29,527 nucleotides of DNA from a virus. The notes below the pieces were generated by a model. That model worked only from the letters and a program-made list of their open reading frames with translations, was not told the origin of the DNA and searched no databases. The position numbers were made by a program, and so were the translations under genes. Shown here piece after piece: positions 25,174-27,603 of this stretch. The stretch is from positions 1-29,527 of IMG/VR virus record IMGVR_UViG_3300010430_000353; one strand, given 5' to 3'. The stretch's first letter is position 1, and each line of letters begins with the position of its first letter.

Positions 25174-25182
25174 TGTTATACT
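25174..25182 (+). promoter_or_regulatory. Candidate rightward extended -10 promoter before the structured RNA
   Basis: TGTTATACT is an extended -10 with TATACT (five of six). Start would be near 25189, just before the small hairpin GGTAT-GGA-ATACC (25192-25204). No -35 match is visible. Confidence 0.4.
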
Positions 25183-25298
25183 ATCACATAGGGTATGGAA
25201 TACCTTACTTTTAATTGGTTTGGGTATATGTTGTTATGAATTCATCGAACGGCGCTACATCGCTAGGCCACTAGGTTGAAAGGTTCGGTAGGGGACTT

Positions 25299-25331
25299 GA
25301 TCTTGCCCCCGCCTTGTGCTTAAGTAAGGTT
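25299..25331 (+). repeat. Hairpin copy 1 with the CCGCCTTGTGCTTAA loop
   Basis: The stem is 25299-25306 with 25324-25331 (8 bp, three of them G-U). The loop region CCCGCCTTGTGCTTAAG (25308-25324) is identical over 17 bases to copy 2, while the stem sequence differs and still pairs. Confidence 0.75.
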
Positions 25332-25640
25332 CAGAGACGCAGGAAACGCAGACGTTAGATAGGAGTATCCTTAACCGGACTTGATCCCTGTCTATCAGAG
25401 CTTAGACTGCCATACGCTAGAAGTGCCTAGTCTCTACATATGACGCCGCTAACCCACAGCGTCTAACAAATAAGGGGTTGACAAGGTTGGCACCTCCTGA
25501 TAAGGTGTAAACAGTCAAGCACACTGCCCCACGGCAGGCATATTGACAATAAAAGTGGTCCCTTGAAAAGGGGTAGGTGTACCATAAGTAAACCATTCAC
25601 GCTTGGCACGACGTTTATATCGGCCACACTAAGGGTACTG

Positions 25641-25671
25641 ACCTAGCGCCCGCCTTGTGCTTAAGCTAGGT
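25641..25671 (+). repeat. Hairpin copy 2 with the CCGCCTTGTGCTTAA loop
   Basis: ACCTAGC (25641-25647) pairs perfectly with GCTAGGT (25665-25671). The loop carries the same 17 bases (25649-25665) as copy 1, 341 bases upstream. AAGCACA at 25517-25523, between the two copies, is exactly complementary to TGTGCTT in either loop and could form a pseudoknot. Confidence 0.8.
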
Positions 25672-26193
25672 TTGGAAATATATCCTCTAGGGGTAATACC
25701 CTAAGCGAGAGTTGGACTAGTAATAGGGAACAGCATTCCCGTGCTAACTGGCCAGGCTATGTGTGAGGGTCTGTGAATAGCTGCCGCCTTTAGGTGTCGT
25801 GTGTTCTTACTAGGTAAGCTCATACGTAAAAGAGACGGTGAAAGCAGGCTACGCAAGGCTAGTTAGTAATTGAAATATCCAGACTGTACGGCGATGTACA
25901 GGTAGTGAGGACGCGACCACGATAGGCGCGAAACAAGTGTGTGCGGGGCCAGGACCAGTTTGCCCTACGTCTGTAGAATGACGTCAATGGTTTGTGGTGT
26001 GATACCACTAACGGCTGACCTTTATTGCGATGCCGTGCAACCCAGCGGGTTCAACCCCGGTTGTGTGAGCTGGCGCTAGGCTATCCTAGTTGTCGCCCGA
26101 GATGTGTTAGCTCACTCAGCGTTGTGTTTGACTGTTTGCTAAGGCAAGCTGCCATTGATTGGCTGTTTACCTTAACAAACTATGGAGGATGCT

Positions 26194-26412
26194 ATGCAGT
26201 ATCTGAAAGAAATGCCTAACGGCAATCGCAAGCAAGTGGATCAGGAGCAGTTCCTGGTTGACAAGCACAATCCTGACTATTGTCAGATCATTGCAACCAG
26301 TGCCCTTGTCATCTATAAGTTGGCACGTCGTGCTACTGGTCATGTGCCTAAGCCTCTTCGTTATGGTGGCCGTGGTCGTGGCGGTCCTGGCACTGTATGG
26401 AATGGTGCTTAA
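26194..26412 (+). CDS. Small early-type protein, unknown function
   Basis: This 72-residue protein begins MQYLKEMPNGNRKQVDQEQF. The middle is helical (YCQIIATSALVIYKLARRAT) and the tail is a Gly/Arg-rich segment (YGGRGRGGPGTVWNGA), reminiscent of nucleic-acid-binding tails. The ATG at 26194 is chosen because GGAGG ends five bases before it; an earlier in-frame ATG at 26182 would overlap that ribosome site. It is the first gene downstream of the structured RNA and may share its transcript. I recognise no family. Confidence 0.7.
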   Translation: MQYLKEMPNGNRKQVDQEQFLVDKHNPDYCQIIATSALVIYKLARRATGHVPKPLRYGGRGRGGPGTVWNGA

Positions 26413-26475: not shown

Positions 26476-27066
26476 ATGACACATCGTCTACATAACGTGG
26501 TGTATGCACGGCTTGATGCTGTTGCTGCCGCCGAAAAGATCACCCGTGTTGAGCTGGGCCATCTGTCCCGTGAGCTGCTTGAGTACGTGGTGGACACACA
26601 TGACATTGATATTGTCAACCGCCTCATCGGTGTGCTGACCCCTGTCAACAAGCGTGTCTCTATCCTGTACTTCACTCACTTCCTTCCGTGGACTGTGGAA
26701 AAGGACAGCGACGGCAAGTTCGTGCGATTCGGTAAGATGCTGGGCAAGCCTAAGCAGGTGAAGAAACGTGTTGAACTCATTGCCGCATTCCTGGTTAATG
26801 AGAACAATAACATCTGGTCGTGGTCCGATGAACACATCGAGGTTGAACAGAAGCAAATCAACCTGGGTGAGAAACTGGAAACTGCAATCGTCCAGGCTAT
26901 GCAGGGTGTGGACACTGACAAGCAGCACGGTGACGCCCTATCCAAAGCTGACATCCTCACCGTTGTCATGAAACATATCACCGGCGATGAGATGCTTGAT
27001 ATCATCACGTCTGTCGCTGATGAGGTCCAGGAACAGGTGGACGATGTGATGGATGAGGCTGCATAA
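26476..27066 (+). CDS. Conserved-looking early phage protein, unknown function
   Basis: This 196-residue soluble protein has an N-terminal half with helices (LDAVAAAEKITRVELGHLSR) and a Trp/Phe-rich core (ILYFTHFLPWTVEKDSDGKF, residues 84-103). It is followed by KMLGKPKQVKKRVELIAAFL, the acidic segment NIWSWSDEHIEVEQKQINLG and a long helical acidic tail (DEVQEQVDDVMDEA). AAAGGAG lies seven bases before the ATG. Codon choice here is more G+C-rich than in the late genes. The mix of basic middle and acidic tail would suit a nucleic-acid mimic or host-takeover protein, but that is a guess. Terminator follows. Confidence 0.75.
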   Translation: MTHRLHNVVYARLDAVAAAEKITRVELGHLSRELLEYVVDTHDIDIVNRLIGVLTPVNKRVSILYFTHFLPWTVEKDSDGKFVRFGKMLGKPKQVKKRVELIAAFLVNENNNIWSWSDEHIEVEQKQINLGEKLETAIVQAMQGVDTDKQHGDALSKADILTVVMKHITGDEMLDIITSVADEVQEQVDDVMDEAA

Positions 27067-27132: not shown

Positions 27133-27160
27133 ATGGGAGAAAATATTGATTGCATTTGCT

Positions 27161-27181
27161 GGTCCCTTAGCTCAACTGGAT
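27161..27181 (+). pseudogene. 5' fragment of a split tRNA gene
   Basis: GGTCCCT-TA-GCTC-AACTGGAT is a textbook tRNA acceptor 5' strand, U8-A9, D-stem 5' strand and D-loop; no D-stem 3' strand or anticodon arm follows. Its acceptor strand pairs over all seven positions (one G-U) with AGGGATC of the fragment at 27611-27644, 450 bases away. The fragment is overlapped by the 3' end of the HNH gene on the other strand. Confidence 0.7.
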
Positions 27182-27522
27182 GATCTTCGAGAGTGTGTTA
27201 CTATAGAGTGACAATTAGCACACCGTACTTCACACTTACGTATCTCCTCTTTAATAACCTGCATTGAAAAACATTGACTTACTAAAGAAGAGACGTTATC
27301 TTTCTTTAAACCCCTTACATGGTCAAACTGCAAAGCCACGGGGTTGTCCTTATAACCACAGTCAATGCAACCACAAAACGTTTTGTAACGGTTAGTGAAG
27401 GCGATTAACTTAGGTCTGAGAGCTTTTTGTCTGGCCTTTCTCTTATCTTTATAATACTGTTTGTTGTCTTGGTAATGTTGTTTTATGTACCTTTTTTGGT
27501 ACTCTGGGTCATTACTTGGCAA
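27172..27522 (-). CDS. HNH homing-type endonuclease
   Basis: This 116-residue protein has a basic, helical N-terminus (KRYIKQHYQDNKQYYKDKRK) followed by a complete HNH zinc finger: C52-x2-C55 in CGCIDCGYKD, the catalytic Asp67-His68 pair in LQFDHVRG, Asn75-Asn76-like loop KKDNVSS, then C101-x2-C104-H105 in VRCANCHSIVTH. It would nick or cut DNA and promote its own spread. The start is TTG, with AAGGAGG six bases upstream. That ribosome site is the complement of the tRNA-Arg acceptor strand, and the last codons (RRSSS-stop) are the complement of the split tRNA's D-arm. It is the only leftward gene in the early arm, an obvious insertion. Confidence 0.9.
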   Translation of the reverse strand: MPSNDPEYQKRYIKQHYQDNKQYYKDKRKARQKALRPKLIAFTNRYKTFCGCIDCGYKDNPVALQFDHVRGLKKDNVSSLVSQCFSMQVIKEEIRKCEVRCANCHSIVTHSRRSSS

Positions 27523-27527
27523 TATCT

Positions 27528-27603
27528 ACCTCCTTGGTGAAACTGGATATCATACGAGATTTCTACTCTTGGGTTAGGGGTTCGAGTCCTCTAGGGGGTG
27601 CCA
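27528..27603 (+). tRNA. tRNA-Arg (anticodon TCT)
   Basis: This is a full cloverleaf of 76 bases with encoded CCA. The acceptor ACCTCCT/AGGGGGT has 7 bp with one G-U. The D-stem is GTGA/TCAT and the D-loop AACTGGATA has G18-G19 and A20. The anticodon stem CGAGA/TCTTG carries the loop TTTCTAC with anticodon TCT at 27562-27564. The variable loop is GGTT, the T-stem AGGGG/CCTCT has the loop TTCGAGT, and the discriminator is G. A20 and C35 are known arginine identity elements. It would help read AGA/AGG codons. It lies inside the split tRNA, back to back with the HNH gene. Confidence 0.93.

Follow-up and report, generated by a model that had tools for sequence, protein, structure and literature searches.

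What occupies the gap between the two divergent gene arms of this phage? The first-pass annotation proposed that positions 25190–26160 specify a highly structured non-coding RNA. The window analysed here, 29,527 bases, is the entire IMG/VR virus record and, judged by its sequence, is a Zobellviridae-type phage record. Its large terminase is 72–75% identical to those of Pseudomonas phages PA11 and O4 and Salinivibrio phage CW02, all of which are Zobellviridae. The proposed setting between divergent arms is borne out. The late arm (terminase, portal, capsid, tail and endolysin genes) lies on the − strand to the left of the gap, and early ORFs lie on the + strand to the right. Zobellviridae reportedly encode no RNA polymerase (PMC9960094), so the host enzyme should carry out early transcription. 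The tRNA island said to adjoin the region is in fact a single tRNA-Arg gene, at 27528–27603, more than 1 kb from the RNA. A tRNA-like 5′ fragment, GGTCCCTTAGCTCAACTGGAT, seen by eye near 27158, directly adjoins an HNH endonuclease gene (27175–27522, − strand), after which comes the intact tRNA-Arg gene. Positions 27158–27603 may record homing into a tRNA gene.

As the first-pass annotation stated, the region contains no credible gene. Each of the six frames is interrupted by numerous stops across the core, in the window as in three relatives, and the indels between RNA homologues have lengths that are not multiples of three. The description 'highly structured' could not be substantiated from the single sequence: the + strand of the full region folds with unremarkable energy (z −0.86, a value equalled or bettered by 4 of 20 shuffles), and the − strand gives z −2.4. 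The many local stems reported earlier are moderately in excess when short, with 52 perfect stems of at least 4 bp (shuffles 32.8±6.7; one of 200 as high) and 14 of at least 5 bp (8.3±3.3; 16 of 200 as high), but not at 6 bp or more, where there is one against 2.3 in shuffles. For the sequences compared here, the proof of structure is covariation, not folding energy.

A related RNA is present at the same genomic place in three relatives. That in KZY1 (PQ867840, locus L090) was found by nhmmer (E 3e-12), that in G001 (IMGVR_UViG_3300038371_000007, locus L103) via a pattern taken from the 3′ arm, its homology to the window having E 1e-70, and that in L110 (IMGVR_UViG_2775506780_000001) was reached through an early protein. 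KZY1 and G001 were both assembled from metagenomes. G001 and the window are 72% identical over 499 nt. Comparison of the L110 gap with the KZY1 gap gives a score of 65.4 against 37±4.6 in shuffles (z 6–7), and model R3 (25881–25949), built from the window and G001 only, matches L110 at the corresponding place and strand with E 0.006. Models R1 and R2 do not match L110, which is thus a distant member. Run over about 100 mostly Zobellviridae-type loci, R1 and R2 recovered only the three known members, plus chance matches, and a distant DNA search with the window found nothing in phages or plasmids. One pattern scan of an 84,980-species genome collection gave two matches (L115 and L116) that the models do not confirm, and another scan of this collection was empty. 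The repeated 15-mer CGCCTTGTGCTTAAG led, in viral contigs, to seven loci lacking further homology and was set aside as a chance recurrence. No such RNA in Zobellviridae is described in the open-access papers searched. As a separate observation, a gene for a LAGLIDADG homing endonuclease in G001 adjoins a partial match to a capsid gene (L104 4506–6210) and may have inserted into that capsid gene or alongside it.

The conserved RNA core spans 25632–26129 on the + strand. RNAalifold of window positions 25620–26135 against G001 gives −138 kcal/mol, compared with −87±6.3 in 100 column shuffles (z −8.1), and the consensus energy is lower on the + than on the − strand. Two-sided changes that preserve pairing affect 26 of the 131 pairs (shuffles: mean 9.4, maximum 16), a covariation that rests on few events since only three homologues are known, one of them distant; the count of zero broken pairs in the consensus is partly an artefact of the method. 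The covariation in homologues on which the first-pass reading depended is present, and a conserved + strand RNA almost certainly exists, as judged from these alignments. The region combines conserved non-coding structure with covariation, as a large structured phage non-coding RNA should. The claim of structure from 25190 to 26160 stands for the core, but not for the first 300–450 bases, which are unsupported as conserved RNA; for the 5′ half (25190–25470), comparison with G001 over 25230–25476 reveals no convincing conservation of structure (z −1.5, 48% identity). The contrast of a conserved 3′ and a variable 5′ region recalls GOLLD, a resemblance in outline only.

A hairpin with the loop CCCGCCTTGTGCTTAA occurs on the + strand at 25638–25673, within the core, and at 25297–25331, outside it; the earlier copy is part of a 42-nt repeat with 83% identity, and its pairing was drawn by eye. 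The stem of the second copy is CCUAGC/GCUAGG in the window and is rewritten as ACUCAC/GUGAGU in G001 (L103 1045–1076), with the loop conserved. For the first copy in the window and the G001 counterpart of the second, the minimum free energy fold of the isolated piece departs from the drawn pairing. With two copies in the window and a slightly altered one in G001, on stems that differ, this loop is a candidate binding or kissing site. The GNRA-capped hairpin reported previously is probably the GAAA hairpin at 25560–25573, which is present but outside the conserved core; it belongs to a variable 5′ segment of the predicted RNA (25507–25631, + strand) with no conserved structure against G001 (z 0.7).

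Further into the core, a three-way junction at 25780–25840 (+ strand) with conserved CUUUAGG, UUACUAGGUA and CGUAAAAG is shared by the window, G001 and KZY1. Standard pairs are kept in 93% of cells across these three, and the changes are mostly one-sided. Five + strand hairpins follow between 25884 and 26036 (25884–25901, 25912–25930, 25967–25984, 25994–26008 and 26011–26036). The hand-drawn helices of this stretch are paired in 98% of cells and include eight two-sided changes, a level reached by three of 500 shuffles; sliding the partner sequence abolishes the pairing. The multi-part 3′ arm described earlier, at 26065–26115 (+ strand), was confirmed, and G001 and KZY1 have it too. The window and G001 share the outer helix GUGAGCU/AGCUCAC, in place of which KZY1 has CCGACA/UGUCGG, still paired. 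The inner sequence is nearly invariant and so is uninformative on its own pairing, and folding the arm from single sequences gives differing results.

Promoter-like elements precede the core on the + strand. P1 (25108–25136), TTGACA-N17-TATCCG followed by CGCG, is promoter-like by resemblance only; similar TTGAC[A/T] elements followed by CGCGCG occur in G001 (L103 280) and L110 (2742). The candidate extended −10 promoter of the first-pass annotation can be seen by eye as TGTTATACT at 25174–25182, but was not found in the relatives, and P2 is better supported. P2 (25478–25506), TTGACA-N17-TAAGGT, recurs in G001 (L103 929, −10 TAGGGT) and L110 (3124), where 0.02–0.06 would be expected per gap. 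It lies in an island before the core that is near-identical in the window and G001, namely (C/T)TAACAAATAAGGGGTTGACA, 17 bases, then TAAGGT or TAGGGT; the L110 island reads GGGGGTTGACA-N17-TAAGGT. A consensus promoter scan with standard limits reported no promoter, P2 included. P2 does resemble the sigma70-type elements found throughout Zobellviridae gaps, which places the likely start at about 25512; the RNA thus probably begins near this position, although the −10 of this putative promoter is poor.

The core ends at about 26129, and the sequence beyond differs between the phages. A long imperfect hairpin without a T run (26134–26180, + strand; −20.4 kcal/mol, z −4.95) is a candidate processing site, and L110 has a similar long hairpin in the corresponding position. 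The stretch from the RNA to the first early gene yielded no terminator, so the RNA may remain part of the mRNA. In G001, the RNA is separated from the first early gene by a match to manA RNA (RF01745; L103 1564–1776; 51.1 bits, cut-off 55.2). Marine sequences and cyanophages are the main known sources of the manA motif (PMC2864571). As this manA-type RNA is a candidate cis-regulator, its position suggests that transcription probably reads through. The corresponding spacer in KZY1 has an extra small ORF. Such differing material between RNA and gene suggests a separate unit rather than a switch tied to one ribosome-binding site.

The same slot in related phages is filled differently. The gaps of CW02, T2S1, KZY1-k141_1938105, PA11, Pecta and others hold one to three sigma70-type elements (TTGAC[A/T]-N17/18-TAnnnT), and most also hold the rRNA-type boxA CTCTTTAACAAT and near forms, against about 0.1–0.2 expected per gap; such sites number up to three or four per gap in relatives without the RNA. 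No exact boxA is present in the window or KZY1 gaps. Because the gaps of relatives hold promoter/boxA leaders, the RNA occupies the slot of those leaders. In Zobellviridae early-region gaps generally, boxA and sigma70-type elements often stand in tandem, far above chance, as at L089 6205, 6445 and 6671, L097 7440, 7653 and 7857, and L098 2840, 3087 and 3326, and they are also present in L092, L094, L096 and L100. This suggests that early phage transcripts of Zobellviridae are under rRNA-like antitermination.

The first gene after the RNA (26194–26412, + strand) encodes a basic protein of 72 aa with a net charge of +6 and GGRGRGG near the C-terminus. Amongst the loci examined, homologues (68–77 aa) were present only in the four RNA-bearing phages, and tblastn of the phage collection returned KZY1 only; the next gene (26476–27066), unlike this one, is spread across Zobellviridae. 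RNA and protein therefore co-occur, in four related genomes only. Structure prediction gives a beta-beta-alpha-beta-beta fold and a basic tail of low confidence (mean pLDDT 66), and a search of the PDB with this only partly confident model gave no significant match. That the protein binds RNA is a guess from its charge and sequence.

These data point to a new family of large, structured, non-coding RNAs whose members known to date all come from one Zobellviridae-type phage group. For its mode of action, we favour a stand-alone folded RNA over a cis-acting leader, and give an even chance to the full reading, in which the RNA arises as a leader and may then be set free and become bound to the small protein. 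Host RNA polymerase would start at P2 (about 25512) early in infection, so that the early operon would have the RNA as its untranslated leader. Cleavage at the hairpin at 26134–26180, by RNase III or another ribonuclease, may then follow, and the released RNA of about 600 nt would act in trans as a folded body, possibly bound by the small basic protein from the adjacent downstream gene. The early-operon setting suggests a role in host takeover or early phage gene expression, rather than in virion building.

Could the stretch instead act as DNA, for example as a replication origin or a packaging or recombination site, with stems that form cruciforms or protein-binding palindromes? It is intergenic and lies between divergent arms, and the − strand, too, does well relative to shuffles, as is usual for conserved stems. 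However, one-sided, G-U-type changes number 20 on the + strand against 6 on the −, G001 against KZY1 is significant on the + strand only (z −3.4, compared with −0.8), and unpaired loops and the three-way junction are conserved, all of which makes a DNA site very unlikely. A cis-acting leader of the early operon, that is, a large antitermination or regulatory element like HK022 put in the promoter-plus-boxA slot, is possible, if on the unlikely side. It would account for a position immediately 5′ of the first early genes with no intervening terminator, for the probable read-through past the manA-type RNA in G001, and for the sigma70-type elements, mostly with boxA, of relatives without the RNA, where the window and KZY1 have no boxA. 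Put RNAs, including that of HK022, are far smaller than the RNA here, though, the spacer between RNA and gene is of different kinds in different phages, and there is no likeness to any Rfam leader.

A rather doubtful extension of the stand-alone reading is a new class made as infection begins, in place of boxA leaders, and forming either a ribonucleoprotein with the co-inherited small basic protein or an RNA-only homo-oligomer. Candidate contacts in such an oligomer are the conserved, nearly self-complementary UUACUAGGUA and CUAGG/CCUAG. Only a few large ornate phage RNA classes are known, and the RNA here offers a handle on function through its predicted start and the co-occurring protein. 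As relatives have a different leader in the same slot, a swap experiment is possible. Being outside Rfam, the RNA is missed by standard annotation.

Searches with Rfam 15 at gathering and loose thresholds gave no real match in the region; mir-30 and a nematode snoRNA matched by chance. The first-pass annotation likened the region in size and setting to GOLLD and ROOL, allowing for a new class. Size and phage setting are indeed alike, but the model match and the tRNA island are lacking, the latter being a usual rather than a strict feature of GOLLD. Nanocages mark both classes, homo-oligomeric in GOLLD and RNA-only in ROOL. In the search that it proposed, neither GOLLD (RF02032), run without a positive-control phage, nor ROOL (RF03087), for which the control plasmid pMP118 was found (E 1e-29), matched the window phage, G001 or KZY1 up to E 10. 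Like GOLLD, which has a conserved 3′ half and a loose 5′ half (PMC12286853), this RNA is large, ornate, phage-borne and non-coding, with a conserved 3′ part and a looser 5′ part; it differs from GOLLD in its early-operon leader position and adjoining small basic protein. It shares with ROOL a length of about 600 nt, a phage link, many helices and the lack of a reading frame. A GOLLD or ROOL member too diverged for the Rfam models is very improbable, and a new class fits better, as no Rfam family matches.

Likeness to other phage RNAs is one of setting. The most abundant transcript of ICP1 is a non-coding RNA of about 800 nt from a 1-kb gap (PMC7567579). This lytic phage likewise has an ORF-less gap of about 1 kb and an RNA of no Rfam class (PMC7567579), a precedent by setting for the stand-alone reading, although the ICP1 RNA is near the lysis cluster, and models R1 and R2 found no homologue in ICP1. 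The manA RNA (RF01745) is also a phage-borne structured RNA in a 5′ leader and adjoins the RNA in G001; it is a separate element, with no match in the window. HK022 put is a structured RNA with which an early phage transcript begins (PMC9378689); the RNA here would hold a like position, as assigned by sequence only, from a predicted promoter.
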